From assembly GCA_963169045.1 (NCBI GenBank), contig CAUJDF010000041.1:128872-192871 (forward strand): a stretch of DNA of 64,000 nt, written 5' to 3'. Below the pieces are notes generated by a model, which searched no databases, was not told the DNA's origin, and saw only the letters and a program-made list of their open reading frames with translations. The DNA comes from Myxococcota bacterium (lineage in GTDB: Bacteria; Myxococcota_A; Bradymonadia; UBA7976; UBA1532). Of the stretch, positions 28,902-61,685 are shown one piece after another. The translations under genes were made by a program, and so were the position numbers. The stretch's first letter is position 1, and the number at the start of each line of letters is the position of its first letter.

Positions 28902-31621
28902 GGCAGGAGGTACTCGATCTCGACGCTGAGGTCGGCGACGGCGCCGGTGTCGCGGGGGCCGTGGTCCTCGACGCGCAGCGTGAACGTGCCGCGGGCGGCG
29001 AGGCCCTCGAACTGGCGGTAGACGCGGTCGTCGAAGTTGATGTCCCCGCCGGTCAGCGGCAGGAAGTCGTCGTCGCGACCGCCGTCGCCGCCGTTCTCGT
29101 CGCCCTCGCGGTCCCACATCACGACCACGTCCTGGCCTTCCCACATGCCGATCACGCGCAGGTCGCGGAGGAAGTCGTGGTTGACGTCCAGGTCGCGCAC
29201 CGTCAGTCGGCGGATGACCGCGCCCGCGGGCACGTCGAACACGAGGTTCACCCGCGCCACGCCCGCCGCGCCGTTCGCGTAGTCGGGGATGTTCACGTCG
29301 GCGCCGGGCATGTTCACGCGCCGGGACTGCGCCTGGCCGCTCGTCTTGAACAGCCGATAGGCGTTCTTCGCGCCGTTGAAGCCGTAGACGCGCACGTGAT
29401 AGGTGCCGCGCTCGAGCACCTGCTCGATCGTCTCGTCGTCGTCGCTGCTGTTGGCGAAGGCGATGGCGTTGTTGCTGCCGTCGCGGAAGAGCTGCATGTC
29501 GACGTCGCCGGCGTCGTGCGCGAAGAGCAGGTCGATCCGCACGTTGCCGCGCGCCGGCACGTCGAACGTGTACCAGTCGTCGTCATGGTCGCAGACCTGG
29601 CGGCGCTCGCCGACGGCCGGCAGGCGCGAGGCGCCGTCGCGGGTGTCGTTGTGCTCGCCGGCGCCGCCCTCGGCGTCATCGGTGCACTGCGTGAAGACGT
29701 TGGCGGTCAGGCCGTACTCGTTGCGCGCGGCGCGGAAGCCGTAGACGCGCACGAGGTACGTGGCGTTCTCGCTGGCGCGGCGCTCGTACACCGTCTCCGT
29801 GTCGCCGACGCCGGTGCTGCTGTCGACGTAGACCAGCTCGCCGTCGGCGTCCCGCTTGTAGAGGGCCACGTCGACGTCGCCGCGATCGTGCTCGAACGCG
29901 AGGTCGATCTCGAGGCCGTCGCCGGCCCGCAGGTCGATCTGGTACCAGTCGTCGTCGTTGGGGCACACCACGAGGCCGCCGTACTGCACGCCGCCGGTGT
30001 TGCCGTCCTCGACGCCGGTGGCGAACGCGTCGGTGCCGTTGCTGCGGGCGCGGTCGAACGCGTCGTCGGCGCAGGCGTCCGGCGTCGCGGGATCGCAGTC
30101 GTCGTCGCGGCCGTTGTTCACGATCTCGACGGGCCCCGGGATGGCCGGGTCGTTGGGCTCGCAGTCCTGGGCGTCGGGCACGCCATCGTCGTCGGCGTCG
30201 TCGTCGGCCACGCCGCACTCGACGTCGCCGCCGCGGCAGTCGTGGTCGATGCCGTCGCCGCAGTTCTCCTGGCCGTTCTCGGTCACGCCGGGATGGATGG
30301 ACGGATCGTCCTCGTCGCAGTCCGTGTCGCGGCCGGCTCCGTCGTTGTCGAGGTCGTCGTCGCGCGTGGCCGGGTCGCAGTCGTCGTCCACGCCGTTGTA
30401 CGGGACCTCGTCCGCGTCCGGGTTCACCTCGGGCGCGCTGTCGTTGCAGTCGGGACCATCGCCGCCGCCGAAGCCGTCGCCGTCGGCGTCGGCGTCGACC
30501 GTCGCCGGGTCGCAGTCGTCGTCGACGCCGTTGCCGAAGACCTCGCGGGCGTTCGGGTTGACCGCCGGATCCTCGTCGCCGCAGTCGGCGGGCGCCGGGA
30601 AGCCGTCGGCGTCGAGGTCGTTGTCGCGGGTGGTCACGTCGCAGTCGTCGTCGACGCCGTTGTAGGGCGTCTCCTCGGCGTTCGGGCTGACCGCCGGGTT
30701 CTCGTCATTGCAGTCGCCCTCGGCCTCGGTGACGCCGTCGCCGTCGACGTCGCCCTCCATCGCCACCCGGTCGCTGCCGTCGCAGTCCTCGTCGGTGCCG
30801 TTGCCGGCCACGTCGCGGGCGCCGGGGTTGATGTGGCGCGCCTGGTCGTTGCAGTCGTCGCCGCCGGCCTCGGTGGCGCGGAAGCCGTCGCCGTCCTGAT
30901 CGTCGTCGCGCGTCTGCGGATCGCAGTCGTCGTCCTTGCCGTTGTAGTAGACCTCGTCCTTGTCGGGGTTGACCTGCGGATCGGCGTCGTCGCAGTCGCC
31001 GTTCTTGTCGGTCACGCCGTCGCCGTCGGCGTCGACCTCGCCGCAGACCGCGTCACCGTTGGCGCAGTCGTGGTCGATGCCGTCGTCGCAGCGGGTCTCG
31101 CCGTTCTCGGTCTGGCCGGGGTGGACGTCGCCGTTGGCGTCGTCGCAGTCGGGGCCCGCCTGGCAGCCGGCGCCGAACGTGTCGCCGTCGGCGTCGATGC
31201 ACTCCTGCAGCGCCGGCACGCAGCGGTTCTGGTCGGTGCACTCCTCGCCGGGGTTGCAGTGGGTGTCCTCGACGCAGGCCACCGGCTGGCACTGACCGTC
31301 GATGCAGAAGCCGGCGCCCTGGCAGTCCGGGTGGTCCGTGCAGCCGCCACCCTGGTCGATCACGCACGAGAGGTTGTCGAGGTTGCAGGTCCGCCCCGCG
31401 GCACACGCGAGCGTCGGGCTGCACTCGCCGAGGACGCAGGCGCCGTTGAAGCAGACCTGCCCCGGGTCGCAGTCGCCCTCGTTCTGGCAGAGCCCGTCGC
31501 GCACCGCGGCGTCCGGATCCGGACCCGACGACGAGTTGCTGGCGTCGTCGCTGCAGCCGGCGAACGCGCCCGCGCTCAGGCCGGCGACGAGGGCAAACGA
31601 CCCGATCCGATGGCGAAGCAT
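28898..31621 (-). CDS. MopE-type metal-binding-repeat lipoprotein with PPC domains and a C-terminal P-like domain
   Basis: 907 aa. Lipobox FAGC (Cys near 23). Residues 40-140 are Cys-rich EGF-like units. Residues about 140-510 carry many copies of the MopE/thrombospondin-3-like unit: DxDGDG, then DCDDxDPxVNPxxxE and NGxDDDCDP. This is expected to bind calcium or copper. Two PPC-like domains follow (DDDWYQIDLRAG; DDDWYTFDVPARG), and the last 130 residues resemble a proprotein-convertase P domain (VFDVPAGAVIRRLTVRDLDVNHDFLRDL ... FTLRVEDHGP). No protease domain is present. The ATG at 31621 has GGGAGGAG upstream. rnhC is translationally coupled downstream. Confidence 0.82.
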   Translation of the reverse strand: MLRHRIGSFALVAGLSAGAFAGCSDDASNSSSGPDPDAAVRDGLCQNEGDCDPGQVCFNGACVLGECSPTLACAAGRTCNLDNLSCVIDQGGGCTDHPDCQGAGFCIDGQCQPVACVEDTHCNPGEECTDQNRCVPALQECIDADGDTFGAGCQAGPDCDDANGDVHPGQTENGETRCDDGIDHDCANGDAVCGEVDADGDGVTDKNGDCDDADPQVNPDKDEVYYNGKDDDCDPQTRDDDQDGDGFRATEAGGDDCNDQARHINPGARDVAGNGTDEDCDGSDRVAMEGDVDGDGVTEAEGDCNDENPAVSPNAEETPYNGVDDDCDVTTRDNDLDADGFPAPADCGDEDPAVNPNAREVFGNGVDDDCDPATVDADADGDGFGGGDGPDCNDSAPEVNPDADEVPYNGVDDDCDPATRDDDLDNDGAGRDTDCDEDDPSIHPGVTENGQENCGDGIDHDCRGGDVECGVADDDADDDGVPDAQDCEPNDPAIPGPVEIVNNGRDDDCDPATPDACADDAFDRARSNGTDAFATGVEDGNTGGVQYGGLVVCPNDDDWYQIDLRAGDGLEIDLAFEHDRGDVDVALYKRDADGELVYVDSSTGVGDTETVYERRASENATYLVRVYGFRAARNEYGLTANVFTQCTDDAEGGAGEHNDTRDGASRLPAVGERRQVCDHDDDWYTFDVPARGNVRIDLLFAHDAGDVDMQLFRDGSNNAIAFANSSDDDETIEQVLERGTYHVRVYGFNGAKNAYRLFKTSGQAQSRRVNMPGADVNIPDYANGAAGVARVNLVFDVPAGAVIRRLTVRDLDVNHDFLRDLRVIGMWEGQDVVVMWDREGDENGGDGGRDDDFLPLTGGDINFDDRVYRQFEGLAARGTFTLRVEDHGPRDTGAVADLSVEIEYLLP

Positions 31622-31784: not shown

Positions 31785-33140
31785 ATGAGACGGACAATGC
31801 TGCTGTTGTGCCTCGCCGCCGCCGCCGGCTGCGACGAGACCCCGAAGAGCGACGACGGCGACCCGCTCGGCGGCGCCGACGGCGCGGCGCCCGACGCCGC
31901 GCCCGAGGCGGACGCCGCGCCCGATCCCGACCAGGGCGCCGGCGGCATGGGCGGCGCCGGCGGCATGGGCGGCGCCGGCGGCATGGGCGGCGCCGGCGGC
32001 ATGGGCGGCGCCGGCGGCATGGGCGGCATGGGCGGCGCCGGCGGCCAGCCGGGCCCGTCGTGCGGCGGCGACGCGCCCGACGCGCGCGTCGACCAGGTCG
32101 AGGTCCGCATGGAGACGGTCACGATCGGCCGAGATGGCCGCTCCGAGGAGCAGACGCTCGAGCTCCCCGAGGACGCCGTCAGCGTGACGATGATCGTGCT
32201 CGGCAGCGAGGAGTACCTCTACGTCGTCTCCCAGTTCGTCGGCCCCGACGGCCGCGTCTTCACCTCCGAGCGGCCCCCCGGCGTCACGCTCACCCAGATC
32301 GACCAGTTCATCACCCCCTTCCCCGGCCCGTTCCGCAGCCCGAACCGGTCGGTCACCGCGGCGACCGGCGTGGCGGGCTACCTGGCGCCGAACACGCCCT
32401 CGGTCGAGCTGATCCCCGGCGACTGGACGTGGCAGCTGCAGTCGATGTCGGAGCGCGGCCAGCCGGGCAGCGGCGAGGTCGACGTGGTCATCGAGATCAA
32501 GCGCGCCCCGGCGCCGCCGCTCCGCGGCTCGCTCGATCTGCACTTCCACTTCACGGGCGCGCACGGCTGGACGGCGGCCACCGCTGCCGGCGACGCCGAC
32601 TTCCAGGCGGCCGTCGGGCGCATGTGCGAGTTCTACGGCGCGATCGGCATCGGCCTCGGCGCGTTCACCTACGACGACGTCGACCCCGAGTTCGCCACCG
32701 TCGACAGCATCCAGGGCGCCAACAACGAGCTGCACCGCATCTACGCCAGCAGCCGCTATGACACCGGCGTCAGCCTCTTCTTCGTCGAGCGCATCCAGGG
32801 GCCGTTCGCCGGGGCCGCCATCGGCGGCATCGCGGGCGGCACGCCGGGCCCGACGCTGCTGCCGGAGACCGTGCGCAGCGGCGTCGTCGTCGCCACCGAG
32901 CTCGACACCGATCCGCGCGCCATCGGCCACATCATGGCCCACGAGAGCGGCCACTTCCTCGGCCTCTTCCACACGCGCGAGATCACGGGCCACACCGACC
33001 CGATCGCGGACACGCCCGACAACGCGCAGGACAACCTGATGTACCCGACCGTGACGCAGGGCGACGCGCACCTGACCGAGGGCCAGGGCTTCGTGCTCCA
33101 CCGCAGCCCGGCGGTCGTCACCACGGAGGTCGAGCGATGA
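31785..33140 (+). CDS. Metzincin-like zinc metalloprotease lipoprotein
   Basis: 451 aa. Signal with lipobox AAAGC (Cys near 16), an acidic Ala/Asp spacer, a 6-residue GGMGGA repeat array, then a beta-rich domain (about 110-240). The C-terminal catalytic region has HESGHFLGLFH, the complete HExxHxxGxxH zinc motif of metzincins, followed by NLMYP, a plausible Met-turn. It probably cleaves proteins outside the cell. ATG at 31785 with the second Met (31797) as an alternative; no clear ribosome site is visible. It is divergent from the MopE-type lipoprotein, and the HEAT-repeat gene overlaps its end as ATGA. Confidence 0.82.
   Translation: MRRTMLLLCLAAAAGCDETPKSDDGDPLGGADGAAPDAAPEADAAPDPDQGAGGMGGAGGMGGAGGMGGAGGMGGAGGMGGMGGAGGQPGPSCGGDAPDARVDQVEVRMETVTIGRDGRSEEQTLELPEDAVSVTMIVLGSEEYLYVVSQFVGPDGRVFTSERPPGVTLTQIDQFITPFPGPFRSPNRSVTAATGVAGYLAPNTPSVELIPGDWTWQLQSMSERGQPGSGEVDVVIEIKRAPAPPLRGSLDLHFHFTGAHGWTAATAAGDADFQAAVGRMCEFYGAIGIGLGAFTYDDVDPEFATVDSIQGANNELHRIYASSRYDTGVSLFFVERIQGPFAGAAIGGIAGGTPGPTLLPETVRSGVVVATELDTDPRAIGHIMAHESGHFLGLFHTREITGHTDPIADTPDNAQDNLMYPTVTQGDAHLTEGQGFVLHRSPAVVTTEVER
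31941..32039 (+). repeat. 18-bp tandem repeat encoding GGMGGA
   Basis: Four consecutive perfect copies of an 18-bp unit (GGCGGCATGGGCGGCGCC) plus partial 9-bp copies lie inside the metalloprotease gene. They encode a flexible Gly/Met/Ala spacer and are a likely slippage site with in-frame length variation. Confidence 0.85.
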
Positions 33141-46254: not shown

Positions 46255-47718
46255 CTATCGCCGCAGGACGAGCCGCCTCAGGTCGACGTACGCGTCGTGG
46301 ACGCGCGGGTTGATCACCTCGGCGTAGCCGCGGGCGTTCGGGTGGATGGCGTCGCTGAACAGCGCCGCCCGGTCCGCGCGGTCGGCGAGCGCGCGGTTCA
46401 CGTCGACGACCGGCACCTGGAGCTCGGCGCCGAGCGCACGCACGGCGTCGGCCCAGACCTCGCCGAGCGGGCGGCCGGCACGGTCGCCCCAGTCGGCGCC
46501 CTCGGGCCGGAAGACGTAGGCCTCGTAGTCGCCGGGCGGGATCGTCAGCAGCACCGGAATCACGCCGTGGTCGAGGAACCACTGCGCGATGGCCCGCAGG
46601 TCCTCGACGTACGCCGCGCGCGCCTCCGCCTCGCCGGCGGGCGATCGGTCCCAGGAGTAGCGGTCGCGCAGGTACGCCCGCAGATCGTTCGTCCCGTAGA
46701 GGATCGTCGCGATCTCGGGCCAGGCCTGCCGCCGGCCGATCGGGTTCCGGCCGCCGTCGCGGTCCGTGTAGACCATCGGATAGGCCAGGTTGCGCACGCC
46801 GCCCCAGCCGTCGAAGCCGTCGAGCCCCCACCCCGCCGTGGTGCCCGAGGCCGCCGTCTGGAGCACATCGAGGAAGATCGTCGGCTGCCCGAACAGGCGG
46901 CAGTGCGTGGGGTCGGCGTACGCCATGTCCGGGAAGTGGCGATCGGTCGTCAGCGGGTTCAGGAACAGGAACGTCTCGCTGATGCTGTCGCCGACGACCT
47001 GCACCTCGCAGGCGTGCGTGCGCTCTGCGTCGAAGGCCGCGCGCAGACGGTGGACGGCGGCCCAGTCCAGCTGCAGGTAGGGCGACAGGTCGGCGATGGG
47101 GCCTTCGAGCGGACCGGGCGGCGCGGCGTCCGGCTCGGGCGGCGCGGCGTCCGGCTCGGGCGGCGCGGCGTCCGGCTCGGGCGCCGCGGCGTCCGGCTCG
47201 GGCGGCGCGGCGTCCACGACGTGCGGAGAGCCATCGACCTCGCGCGGAGAGCCGTCGACCTCGCGCGGAGAGCCGTCGACCTCGCGCGGAGAGCCGTCGA
47301 CCTCGCGCGGAGAGCCATCGACCGCGTGCGGAGAGCCATCGACCGCGTGCGGAGAGCCATCGACCTCGCGCGGAGACCCGTCCACGTCGCCCGCAGACCC
47401 ATCGATGTCGCCCGCTGACCCGTCGATGTCGCCCGCCGACCCGTCGACCTCGCCCGCAGACCCGTCGACCGCGTGCGAAGAGCCGTCGACCTCGCGTGGA
47501 GATCCGTCGGCGGGCGGCGACCCGTCCGCAGACGGCGACCCGTCCGCGGACCACGGCGGCCGGGCGTCCCACGGCGACGCGTCGGGCGGCGCGCCGTCGG
47601 GCACCGCGGGCCCGAGGTCGGCCGCAAAGCGCCCGTCGCCCTCAACGGGCGCCGTCTCGACGAGGCAGCCCGTGGCGAGCCAGAGGACCGATACCGCCGC
47701 GACCAGCGCCCGACGCAT
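46255..47718 (-). CDS. SGNH/GDSL-type hydrolase lipoprotein with long repeat linker
   Basis: 487 aa. Lipobox LATGC (Cys near 18). Residues about 45-210 are a repetitive linker of DGSPREV- and PPEPDAA-type heptads. The hydrolase domain (about 240-487) has VVGDSIS (nucleophile Ser, block I), LYGTNDLR (block III Asn) and SDAIHPNARGY (Asp-x-x-His, block V), so the catalytic set looks complete. It is probably an outer-surface esterase or acetylesterase acting on sugars. The ATG at 47718 follows GGAGGAAGG. The oxidoreductase gene starts 18 bases after its stop. Confidence 0.8.
   Translation of the reverse strand: MRRALVAAVSVLWLATGCLVETAPVEGDGRFAADLGPAVPDGAPPDASPWDARPPWSADGSPSADGSPPADGSPREVDGSSHAVDGSAGEVDGSAGDIDGSAGDIDGSAGDVDGSPREVDGSPHAVDGSPHAVDGSPREVDGSPREVDGSPREVDGSPREVDGSPHVVDAAPPEPDAAAPEPDAAPPEPDAAPPEPDAAPPGPLEGPIADLSPYLQLDWAAVHRLRAAFDAERTHACEVQVVGDSISETFLFLNPLTTDRHFPDMAYADPTHCRLFGQPTIFLDVLQTAASGTTAGWGLDGFDGWGGVRNLAYPMVYTDRDGGRNPIGRRQAWPEIATILYGTNDLRAYLRDRYSWDRSPAGEAEARAAYVEDLRAIAQWFLDHGVIPVLLTIPPGDYEAYVFRPEGADWGDRAGRPLGEVWADAVRALGAELQVPVVDVNRALADRADRAALFSDAIHPNARGYAEVINPRVHDAYVDLRRLVLRR
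47112..47512 (-). repeat. 21-bp tandem repeat block inside the SGNH lipoprotein gene
   Basis: About five copies of a 21-bp unit encoding PPEPDAA (47112-47217) are followed by about thirteen copies of another 21-bp unit encoding DGSPREV variants (47218-47512). The units are near-identical at DNA level. They code for an extended acidic linker and are prone to length change without frame loss. Confidence 0.8.
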
Positions 47719-58421: not shown

Positions 58422-59831
58422 ATGCAGCGCGCCCTCGCCGGAGCGGTCGCCGCGGCCGCGCTGGTCGTCGCGCCGGCCCGCGCCCTCGAGGCCGAGGGCC
58501 GCGTCATCGGCGCCGTCATCGGCAGCGTCGAGCGCGGGCGACCGGCCCAGGCCATGGACCTCGACGCCGGGACCCTCCGCCTCGACGGCTGGCTGCGTCC
58601 CACCGAGGACGACGCCGCCGCCTACGTCTTCGCCGCCGCCGAGGCCGACGTGCGGGTCGCCGACTGGCTGTCGCTCCGCTTCGGCGCCGATACCGGCTTG
58701 ATCCGCGAGCGAGACGGCGCGGTGGAGTCGGGCGGTCGCCCGATCGGCGAGGAGGCGTCGGCGACGCTCTTCCTCCGCACCGCCTGGGCCGACGTCACCG
58801 CCCCGGACGGCGCGTTCGGCCTCGGCGTCGGCCGCCGCGCCGTGCGCGTGGCCGAGGGCCTGCTCTTCGACGAGTACGCGACCGGCATCGAGGCCTACGT
58901 CGGCCTCGGCGACTTCGCGCTGTCCGCGGGGCTGTGGGTCCCCGGGCGCGACCTTTCGCCCGAGGGCGAGCCCTTCGTGGTGGGCGAGCTGGCGTACGCC
59001 TTCGATTTCCTCAGTCGTGTCGCGGTGTTCGCGGCCATGCACCGCGACAGCGGCGAGACGGCGCGCGCCCTCGGCGAGCAGCTCGTCGTCGAGCGCCGGG
59101 CCACCCTCTCGCCGGCCGACCTCGGCGACGCGCACCTGCTGTGCAACGTCGCCGACGGCGAGGCGCGGCCGTGGTGGATCGGCGCCACCGCCGATCTCGT
59201 GCTCGAGGGCCACACGCTGCGGGGCGCGGTCCTCGCCGGCCGGGGCGAGGCCCGCGTGGACCTCGCCGCCGACCGGAGCCGCCCCCTCTGCCGGGCCGCG
59301 CGCGACCTCGGGTCCGCCGACCTCGACCTGCGCGCCCTCGCCGCCGACGTGACGTGGCGCGCGCGCGCCGGCGCGTCGCTCTGGCCGGGCGCCTTCGCGC
59401 TCTACCACGGCGGCGGCACGTTCGACGGAGGCGGCGGCACGTACACGTCGTTCCTGTCGATCGATCCGTACTCCGATCGGCCGGTCGTCTTCTTCGACGC
59501 GGGCCTGGCCGCGGGTTACGCGCCGCGCGCGCACCGCGCCGCGGGCGTCGCCGGGCGCGGCCTGGTCGCGGCGGGGCCGACGCTGCTCTTCAGCCCCGAC
59601 GCGGCGCTCGAGGTGCACCTGCTGGCGGCGGCGCTCTTCGCCGACGCGCCCGGGCCGCTCGGCGACGCGCGCCGCTACGGCGAGGAGCTCGACGCGCGCG
59701 CCACCTGGCGTCCGACCGAGGGCCTCGCGCTCAGCGCCGAGGCCGGCGCCTGGCGGCTCGGCGACTTCTTCCCCGAGGAGGGCACGGTCTGGCAGGCGCG
59801 CCTCGGCTTGCGCGCGGAATGGCCGCCGTGA
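58422..59831 (+). CDS. Predicted outer-membrane beta-barrel protein
   Basis: 469 aa. Signal peptide (AAAALVVAPARALEA). The remainder shows alternating polar and hydrophobic residues in many short strands (RVADWLSLRFGADTGLI, FVVGELAYAFDFLSRVAVFAAMHRD, WWIGATADLVLEGHTLRGAVLAGRGEA) and ends with LRLGLRAEWPP-like aromatic strands, as in porin-type barrels. No known porin signature. It begins a co-directional run: small acidic protein, sigma factor, anti-sigma factor, DUF3106-like protein. Confidence 0.68.
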   Translation: MQRALAGAVAAAALVVAPARALEAEGRVIGAVIGSVERGRPAQAMDLDAGTLRLDGWLRPTEDDAAAYVFAAAEADVRVADWLSLRFGADTGLIRERDGAVESGGRPIGEEASATLFLRTAWADVTAPDGAFGLGVGRRAVRVAEGLLFDEYATGIEAYVGLGDFALSAGLWVPGRDLSPEGEPFVVGELAYAFDFLSRVAVFAAMHRDSGETARALGEQLVVERRATLSPADLGDAHLLCNVADGEARPWWIGATADLVLEGHTLRGAVLAGRGEARVDLAADRSRPLCRAARDLGSADLDLRALAADVTWRARAGASLWPGAFALYHGGGTFDGGGGTYTSFLSIDPYSDRPVVFFDAGLAAGYAPRAHRAAGVAGRGLVAAGPTLLFSPDAALEVHLLAAALFADAPGPLGDARRYGEELDARATWRPTEGLALSAEAGAWRLGDFFPEEGTVWQARLGLRAEWPP

Positions 59832-59874
59832 GATTCGACCGCAACCTCCGGCGGCGGGGCGGGTTGAGGTGGAC

Positions 59875-60075
59875 GTGAGACCGCTTTCGATCGTGGTGGC
59901 CCTGTTCGTCGACGCCGGCGCCCCCGCGCCGACGTCCGCCCCGCCGGCGCCGCCGCCGCGCGACGCCGACGCCGAGGTCATCGAGCAGCTCGACTTCCTG
60001 CAGTCCCTCGAGCTCCTGCGCGACGACGACCTGACCCTGTTTATGGAAGACGAGGAGGACGCCCGCGATGAGTGA
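59875..60075 (+). CDS. Small acidic protein heading the ECF sigma operon
   Basis: 66 aa from the GTG at 59875, preceded by GAGGTGGAC; the GTG at 59869 is an alternative. A weakly hydrophobic N-terminus (RPLSIVVALFVDAG) and a Pro/Ala stretch lead to an acidic amphipathic helix AEVIEQLDFLQSLELLRDDD. This resembles the C-terminal LDLLEVYGEVEALDAL helix of the anti-sigma factor two genes downstream. The sigma factor's ATG lies inside its last codons (8-base overlap). Function unknown; it may be a partner of the anti-sigma factor. Confidence 0.6.
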   Translation: MRPLSIVVALFVDAGAPAPTSAPPAPPPRDADAEVIEQLDFLQSLELLRDDDLTLFMEDEEDARDE

Positions 60076-60667
60076 GGTCTTCGTCCTCGACGAGGACGCC
60101 CGGCTGATGTGCCGCGTGCGCGACGGCGACGCCGGCGCGTTCGACCGGCTCTTCGAGCGCTGGCGCGTGCCCATCGTGCGGTTCGCGGTGCGCTTCGTCG
60201 GTCGCCAGGACCGCGGCGAGGAGCTCGCGCAGGAGGTCTTCCTCAAGCTGTACCGGGCCCGCGCCCGCTACGAGCCGCGGGAGCGCTTCGCCGCCTGGAT
60301 CTTCCGCGTCGCGACGAACACCTGCCTCAACGAGGTGCGCCGGCCCGAGTACCGGCACCGCCCGGTCGACGTCGAGGACCTCGCCCAGGAGCCGACCGAC
60401 AGGTCCAGGCCGCGGGCCGACGACGCCGTCCACGCGCTGCGGCTCCAGGCCGCCGTCCGCGAGGCGGTGGCCACGCTGCCGGACACGCAGCGCGCCGCCC
60501 TGCTGCTGCAGCAGGACCAGGGCCTGAGCTACGACGAGATCGCCGCCGCGCTCGACTCGACGACGTCGGCGGTGAAGGCGCTGCTCAACCGGGCGCGCCG
60601 CACGCTCACGGAGCGCCTCGCGCCGTGGCTCGAAGCGCGCAGGGCCACGGAGGGGGTGGGCACGTGA
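60068..60667 (+). CDS. RNA polymerase ECF sigma factor
   Basis: 199 aa. Region 2 at about 15-90: RVRDGDAGAFDRLFERW, AVRFVGRQDRGEELAQEVFLKLYRARARYEPRERFAAWIFRVATNTCLNEVRR. Region 4 at about 125-185: AVATLPDTQRAALLLQQDQGLSYDEIAAALDSTTSAVKALLNRARRTLTERL. Both regions are complete. It directs RNA polymerase to stress- or envelope-type promoters. ATG at 60068. The anti-sigma gene overlaps its stop as GTGA, the classic arrangement for a cognate pair. Confidence 0.93.
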   Translation: MSEVFVLDEDARLMCRVRDGDAGAFDRLFERWRVPIVRFAVRFVGRQDRGEELAQEVFLKLYRARARYEPRERFAAWIFRVATNTCLNEVRRPEYRHRPVDVEDLAQEPTDRSRPRADDAVHALRLQAAVREAVATLPDTQRAALLLQQDQGLSYDEIAAALDSTTSAVKALLNRARRTLTERLAPWLEARRATEGVGT

Positions 60668-61188
60668 GCCGCGAAGACGACGCGCTCGACGCGCTGCTGG
60701 CGCTGGACCGGCCCGTGCCCACGTCGGGGTTCGACGCCCGCGTCCGCGCCGCCATCGCCGCCGACCCGGCGCTCGACGCGCTGCTCGCCGCCGACCGGCC
60801 CGCGCCGGGCGCCGACTTCGACGCCCGCGTCCGCGCCGCCATCGCCGACGAGGCGGCCGGCGATCCGCTCGACGCGCTGCTCGCCGCCGACCGCCCGATC
60901 CCGTCGCCCGGGTTCGACGCCCGCGTGCGCGGCGCCGTCCGGGCAGAGCGCCGCCGCGGCGGGTGGATCGCCGGCGCGCTCGCGGCCGCCGCGGCCGCGG
61001 CCGCGCTCTTCTTCGTCGCGCCCCGCGGCGAGGGCGACGGGGATCTCGACGCCGACGCGGCGCTGCTCGCCCACCTCGACCTGCTCGAGGTGTACGGCGA
61101 GGTGGAGGCGCTCGACGCGCTCGAGGACGAAGAGACGTTCGAGCTCGTCGCCGCGCTCGACGACGTGAACGCGGAGGGCATCCCGTGA
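60664..61188 (+). CDS. Membrane anti-sigma factor with three tandem N-terminal repeats
   Basis: 174 aa. The cytoplasmic part (residues 1-95) consists of three tandem copies of LDALLAADRP-x-P-x-x-x-FDARVRAAI. Such a helical element occurs once at the N-terminus of many anti-sigma factors. One transmembrane helix follows (about 100-117, IAGALAAAAAAAALFFV), then an acidic C-terminal helix (LLAHLDLLEVYGEVEALDALEDEETFELVAALDD). There is no zinc H-x3-C-x2-C motif. GTG at 60664 overlaps the sigma stop; the next gene overlaps its own end the same way. It is predicted to hold the sigma factor at the membrane. Confidence 0.8.
   Translation: MSREDDALDALLALDRPVPTSGFDARVRAAIAADPALDALLAADRPAPGADFDARVRAAIADEAAGDPLDALLAADRPIPSPGFDARVRGAVRAERRRGGWIAGALAAAAAAAALFFVAPRGEGDGDLDADAALLAHLDLLEVYGEVEALDALEDEETFELVAALDDVNAEGIP
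60685..60948 (+). repeat. Three tandem intragenic repeats of about 90 bp in the anti-sigma gene
   Basis: Each copy begins CTCGACGCGCTGCT and contains TTCGACGCCCGCGT. DNA identity between copies is high, which suggests recent duplication. They encode the triplicated putative sigma-binding helix. Confidence 0.75.
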
Positions 61189-61685
61189 TCCGCTGCCTCT
61201 TGTGGCTGTGCCTGCTCGCCGTCCCCGCGTCGGCGCTCGCCGCCGGCGAGCCCGAGGCCGCCGCCGCGCAGGACGAGAAGCGCGCCCGCTGGGACAAGCT
61301 GTCGCCCGAGGAGAAGCAGGCGCTCCGAGACCGTCTGCAGAAGTTCAAGGACCTGCCGCCCGAGGAGCGCGAGCGCCTGCGCCGCCGCTGGGCTCGCTTC
61401 CGCGCGTTGCCGACCGAGGAGCGCGAGGCCATCCGCGGCCACTGGGCGCGCTACCGCGACCTGCCGCCGACGGAGCGCGAGGCCCTGCGCCGCAACTTCG
61501 AGCGCTACGAGAAGATGGGCCGCGCCGAGCGCGCGAAGGTGCGCCAGCTCTATCGCCGGCTGATGCAGATGTCGCCGGCGGAACGTCAGAGATTCCTCAA
61601 CAATCTCAAGCGATTCCGAGACATGAGCCCCGCGGAGCGGCAGGATCTGCGCCGCCGGTTCCGCGAGCGTCGGCGCGATCGCTGA
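61185..61685 (+). CDS. Exported Arg/Glu-rich helical protein (DUF3106-like)
   Basis: 166 aa from the GTG at 61185 (GTGA overlap with the anti-sigma stop). Signal peptide ending SALAAG. Then about five repeats of the pattern W-x-x-L-[SP]-P-E-E-R-x-x-L-R-x-R-[WFL] (KLSPEEKQALRDRLQKF, DLPPEERERLRRRWARF, ALPTEEREAIRGHWARY, and so on), as in DUF3106 proteins. Periplasmic by prediction. Its position behind the sigma/anti-sigma pair suggests it is a sensor or target of the system; DUF3106 proteins often occur beside ECF pairs, as I recall. Confidence 0.8.
   Translation: MIRCLLWLCLLAVPASALAAGEPEAAAAQDEKRARWDKLSPEEKQALRDRLQKFKDLPPEERERLRRRWARFRALPTEEREAIRGHWARYRDLPPTEREALRRNFERYEKMGRAERAKVRQLYRRLMQMSPAERQRFLNNLKRFRDMSPAERQDLRRRFRERRRDR

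Follow-up and report, generated by a model that had tools for sequence, protein, structure and literature searches.

The membrane anti-sigma factor encoded in the four-gene operon at positions 59869-61685 of the window (the whole 64,000-nucleotide stretch of DNA analysed here, from a 9.0 Mb draft genome labelled G000) appears to have lost the usual three-helix bundle and carries three tandem copies of a short unit that related anti-sigma factors carry once. The loss of the bundle, which was overlooked in the sequence-only reading of this DNA, is what makes the repeats striking. Taken as a whole, the operon is best explained, with moderate confidence, by a bundle-less anti-sigma factor with tandem minimal clamps, most likely holding more than one sigma molecule per membrane anchor. 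The genes of the operon encode, in order, a small acidic protein, an extracytoplasmic function (ECF) sigma factor, the anti-sigma factor and an exported DUF3106 protein (Table 1). As had been stated earlier, all four genes overlap, namely by 8 bases (small protein/sigma), 4 bases (sigma/anti-sigma) and 4 bases (anti-sigma/DUF3106).

Table 1. Features of the operon and of the gene upstream of it, in window coordinates.
Feature	Position	Strand	Basis or remark
Exported 469-aa protein, probably an outer-membrane beta-barrel (putative)	58422..59831	+	ends 37 bp upstream of the small gene
Small acidic protein	59869..60075 (alternative start 59875)	+	same place in 7 of 8 family genomes
ECF sigma factor, 199 aa, regions 2 and 4	60068..60667	+	Pfam Sigma70_r2, Sigma70_r4_2
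Membrane anti-sigma factor, 174 aa, GTG start	60664..61188	+	matches canonical anti-sigma factors from DUF3106 operons when profiles are compared
Putative sigma-binding unit 1, residues 8-31	60685..60756	+	repeat alignment, unit profile, Tandem Repeats Finder, AF2
Putative sigma-binding unit 2, residues 37-60	60772..60843	+	repeat alignment, unit profile, Tandem Repeats Finder, AF2
Putative sigma-binding unit 3, membrane-proximal, residues 69-92	60868..60939	+	repeat alignment, unit profile, Tandem Repeats Finder, AF2
Anti-sigma transmembrane helix, residues 101-119	60964..61020	+	hydropathy maximum 2.13; AF2 helix 84-118
Anti-sigma acidic tail, presumably periplasmic, residues 129-170	61048..61173	+	AHLDLLEVYxxxExLDALEDEETFELVAxLD; family alignment
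Exported Arg-rich DUF3106 protein, GTG start	61185..61685	+	PF11304 E=2.4e-26

The repeated unit has the 24-residue consensus LDALLAxDRPxPxxxFDARVRAAI, and the three copies are followed by a transmembrane helix and an acidic tail. They are 75-79% identical in protein and 78-81% identical in DNA. The best 24-residue internal match within the anti-sigma factor covers 19 of 24 residues, as against at most 13 of 24 in 200 shuffles, and Tandem Repeats Finder independently reports an array at 60681-60958 with a period of 87 and 3.0 copies. The repeat that had been described as three near-identical copies of a helix is thus real; the word near-identical is a little strong, and the unit is a helix, a proline linker and a second helix. 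In the AF2 model, which is of moderate confidence (pLDDT 69), each unit is predicted as helix-linker-helix and the last one continues into the membrane helix, with no fixed overall fold (pTM 0.25). The single membrane helix and the tail, presumably extracytoplasmic, give the protein the layout of a membrane anti-sigma factor, and the acidic tail is the best-conserved C-terminal part of the family alignment. Neither a Pfam domain nor a match to PDB sequences, even at E=10, was found for the anti-sigma factor, and a fold search with its model gave no match to any solved chain.

The origin of the unit becomes apparent from relatives in the same phylum, most of them metagenome-assembled Myxococcota. 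DUF3106 was found in 65 of 379 genomes of the phylum. In the DUF3106 operons examined outside the family of the window's genome, the anti-sigma factor is mostly ordinary: its bundle, of the zinc-finger or RseA type, is followed by a single helix such as PSPGFETRFWARIA, then by the membrane helix and the acidic tail. The unit profile of the family finds exactly one match, at about residues 54-78 and right after the bundle, in seven distinct canonical anti-sigma factors (L057/L075, L061, L041, L073, L040, L056 and L076; most scores are weak), compared with two to five matches per protein within the family. When whole proteins are compared profile to profile, family and canonical anti-sigma factors match with E=4.7e-13; the aligned part extends from the unit across the tail, and canonical columns 1-40, the bundle, remain unmatched. 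The unit alone matches the canonical anti-sigma factors with E=1.5e-7, so that the earlier statement that other anti-sigma factors carry the element once is supported by two kinds of profile comparison.

In the window protein itself, no class I three-helix bundle, of either the zinc-finger or the RseA type, was detected: there is no Pfam domain, the alignment begins only after the bundle, and the AF2 model is without one. By homology, the helix 4 strip expected to bind sigma region 2 is present three times. These comparisons show that the family proteins are the same anti-sigma factor as the canonical one, but lack the bundle and have the unit in several copies. The ancestor would have been a class I anti-sigma factor whose folded three-helix (zinc-finger) bundle was lost, while the strip after the bundle, consisting of the end of helix 3, a proline linker and helix 4, would have been multiplied.

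The structural literature suggests what such a strip could do. Four solved sigma/anti-sigma complexes have 25 contacts in common, of which two fall at RseA residues 10-11 and 23 at residues 40-63 (PMC7406223 Table 2). The end of helix 3 contacts sigma region 4, and the linker together with helix 4 contacts sigma regions 2.1/2.2 (PMC7406223). The unit corresponds in order and spacing to RseA residues 38-63 (RseA sequence checked against 1or7_C): RseA L38-F53 aligns with L1-F16 of the unit, 15 residues in both, and RVMAAI of RseA resembles RVRAAI of the unit, RseA helix 4 being two residues longer between F and R. Since this is the stretch that holds 23 of the 25 common contacts, each unit would carry nearly the whole sigma contact strip and is a plausible minimal sigma clamp.

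The sigma factor, encoded just before the anti-sigma factor, matches Sigma70_r2 (PF04542, 4.6e-17) and Sigma70_r4_2 (PF08281, 2e-13) and, with these two regions only, is an ECF sigma factor of typical size. Its orthologues in seven family genomes are 60-66% identical, the sigma factors of the eight family genomes with the operon form one clade (support 96/99), and sigma gene and repeat-bearing anti-sigma gene are jointly present or jointly absent across the family genomes. The third gene would encode the membrane anti-sigma factor for this sigma factor. In each unit, contact with sigma region 4 would be made by LDALL, and FDxRVxAAI would lie over sigma region 2.1/2.2, the binding place of the RNA polymerase core. 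The units would be strung like beads on the cytoplasmic side, one membrane anchor most likely holding more than one sigma molecule, and an action on the acidic tail in the periplasm would release sigma.

The repeats and their setting are conserved. Of the 13 genomes of the family that were sampled, 8 have the genes for the sigma factor, the repeat-bearing anti-sigma factor and DUF3106; all three genes are missing from the remaining five, several of which are incomplete drafts. The anti-sigma factor has three units in the window, G011 and G012, five in G008, and two each in G002, G004, G007 and G009. Gene order and multiplicity of the repeat, both proposed earlier as points to check in relatives, are conserved in these relatives. 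A relative with a single repeat and no small protein, named in the sequence-only reading as a case against it, was encountered in parts only: single repeats were seen outside the family, where the bundle is still there, and inside the family G007 has no recognisable small protein. When the phylum was searched with a two-unit profile, tandem units turned up in the eight family genomes only; the pre-filter scored at most 17 places per genome and could have let rare tandem cases escape. Of three weak matches elsewhere, each spanning about one unit, two correspond to the anti-sigma genes in DUF3106 operons. Because the number of units varies from two to five, no fixed stoichiometry is implied.

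None of the eight family operons has fewer than two units, and this would be explained if two or more units clamped the same sigma molecule, with region 2 and region 4 each gripped by a different unit in place of the lost bundle, and extra copies only raising the local concentration. This is a close rival of multiple occupancy and a real possibility, if a somewhat less probable one. Without a bundle, the grip of a single unit may be too weak, and one sigma molecule may require at least two of them. The usual contact surface for region 4, formed by helix 1 and the bundle, is missing. Furthermore, the anti-sigma factors known so far touch sigma at two separate sites, and those of the CnrY type manage with just two helices (PMC7406223). 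However, the end of helix 3 and helix 4 are both already contained in each unit, the same conserved residues occur in all copies with none specialised for region 4, and the number of copies reaches five in G008.

The units themselves bear signs of maintenance. All 22 family units keep D8, P10, P12, F16 and D17, and hydrophobic residues at unit positions 1, 4, 5, 16, 20 and 24 are kept in nearly all of them. Copies are nearly identical within the genome in G008 and in G004, and units 2 and 3 of G012 have a common four-residue insertion. In six of the eight genomes (the exceptions are G002 and G009), mean similarity is 0.60-0.96 within the genome and 0.52-0.62 to other genomes. Between copies, dN is 0.02-0.04 against a dS of 0.05-0.41 in G008 (comparisons with position 132, which were out of register, are left out) and 0.02 against 0.12 in G004. 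The likeness of units within genomes together with dN below dS points to repeated local duplication with the sequence kept by selection; purifying selection acts on the units of a genome. These data also bear on the idea that only the membrane-proximal unit binds sigma and that the others are slippage duplicates, a spacer or a decoy. That copy occupies the place of the single unit in canonical relatives, its position 20 is V in G008, G011 and G012 where upstream copies have F or L, and GC-rich 87-bp arrays expand easily. Nevertheless, the invariant residues are kept in the upstream copies as well, and with dN below dS between copies this explanation is unlikely. That the units form a shared hub for different sigma factors is very improbable, since no second sigma in the genome matches the operon's sigma below 1e-25 and units are mostly more alike within than between genomes (the six of eight given above), even though the genome is large and a first look for the operon's sigma gave 93 candidate places. 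The preferred reading is multiple occupancy. In its fullest form, put forward more tentatively, it describes an anti-sigma factor that is multivalent, with two to five similar minimal clamps strung on one membrane anchor. Each anchor would store several copies of one sigma factor and release them jointly, the number of units setting both the threshold and the dose of the response.

On the envelope side, likely parts of the system would be the exported DUF3106 protein together with the small acidic protein and the putative outer-membrane protein encoded upstream. The upstream protein has no Pfam match; a homologue lies just before the same operon in G002, G008 and G009, as well as in G058 of another family, and similar open reading frames are found at the operon in G011 and G012. 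A conserved ECF-type promoter was looked for upstream of the operon and none was found. The small protein consists of a short N-terminal hydrophobic stretch, a Pro-rich linker and an acidic LDxLxxLELL motif. It is present in seven of the eight family operons, and distant counterparts occupy other positions in operons L044, L079 and L089. The single exception in the family is G007 (L085), where no small acidic gene could be recognised and where the DUF3106 protein is also the least basic (+6 versus +15 to +23). The acidic helix proposed to be shared by the small protein and the anti-sigma C-terminus clearly beats shuffles in five of seven genomes (0-3 of 300), with a similarity that is short and compositional. 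It weakly suggests that the small protein pairs with the anti-sigma tail; that it might compete with the tail for DUF3106 is a guess.

The DUF3106 assignment is secure (PF11304, 92.7 bits against a cut-off of 24.3), and the AF2 model contains eight helices of about 18 residues (pLDDT 87). A CpxP/Spy/CnrX-like sensor was considered on the basis of fold, and a Foldseek search of the PDB with this model gave nothing below E=1. DUF3106 is basic and the anti-sigma tails are acidic; charge matching, considered as a sign of binding between the two, runs the wrong way over 19 operons (Spearman +0.62), more basic DUF3106 proteins going with less acidic tails, and so lends the idea no support. A second, fragment-like DUF3106 copy lies about 7 kb from the operon in G008 (G008:C79:81343-81582, L027), beside a TPR-like protein.

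Several other repeats were noticed. Within the DUF3106 gene, window positions 61350-61508 contain tandem repeats of 54 bases (18 residues), with roughly one repeat for each predicted helix. Elsewhere in the window there are 21-base arrays at 47115-47509 (4.8 copies at 97% matches and 13.7 copies at 88%), about three copies of repeats of 129-135 bases at 30339-30752, and an exact 18-base repeat of 5.2 copies at 31935-32027 (GGCGCCGGCGGCATGGGC), Gly-rich if translated. Downstream of the DUF3106 gene of G008, and outside the operon genes, L083:6965-8065 holds a long array built on a 43-base repeat and its variants, with periods of 43, 85 and 127.

In the literature, which was covered in part, no paper on tandem, multiple or double sigma-binding units or anti-sigma domains was found, which is weak evidence of novelty, and within the same coverage no mention of DUF3106 was found. 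The family offers a natural series of two, three and five tandem contact strips without a folded domain. With such a series it can be tested directly whether a strip of 24 residues suffices to hold an ECF sigma factor and whether the number of units sets the response threshold. The series would also provide a ready-made means of tuning sigma/anti-sigma circuits.

Among known systems, the class I ECF anti-sigma factors (zf-HC2/RseA type ASD) share with the window protein a gene beside that of an ECF sigma factor, a single membrane helix and the strip of helix 3 end, linker and helix 4; unlike them, the window protein is without a three-helix or zinc-finger bundle, and the strip occurs two to five times in tandem in its family. 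CnrY-type anti-sigma factors also lack a bundle and wrap sigma regions 4 and 2 with short helices (PMC7406223). They have one pair of helices, whereas the units here stand in tandem, and the window protein has no sequence or fold match to solved chains. A periplasmic helical partner encoded beside the CnrY-type anti-sigma factors is another likeness to the window operon. The closest parallel in gene content is found in the DUF3106 (PF11304) operons of Myxococcota, which have the same order of sigma, anti-sigma and DUF3106, sometimes a small acidic exported protein, and a similar acidic tail, but in which the anti-sigma factors examined combine one unit with a bundle.
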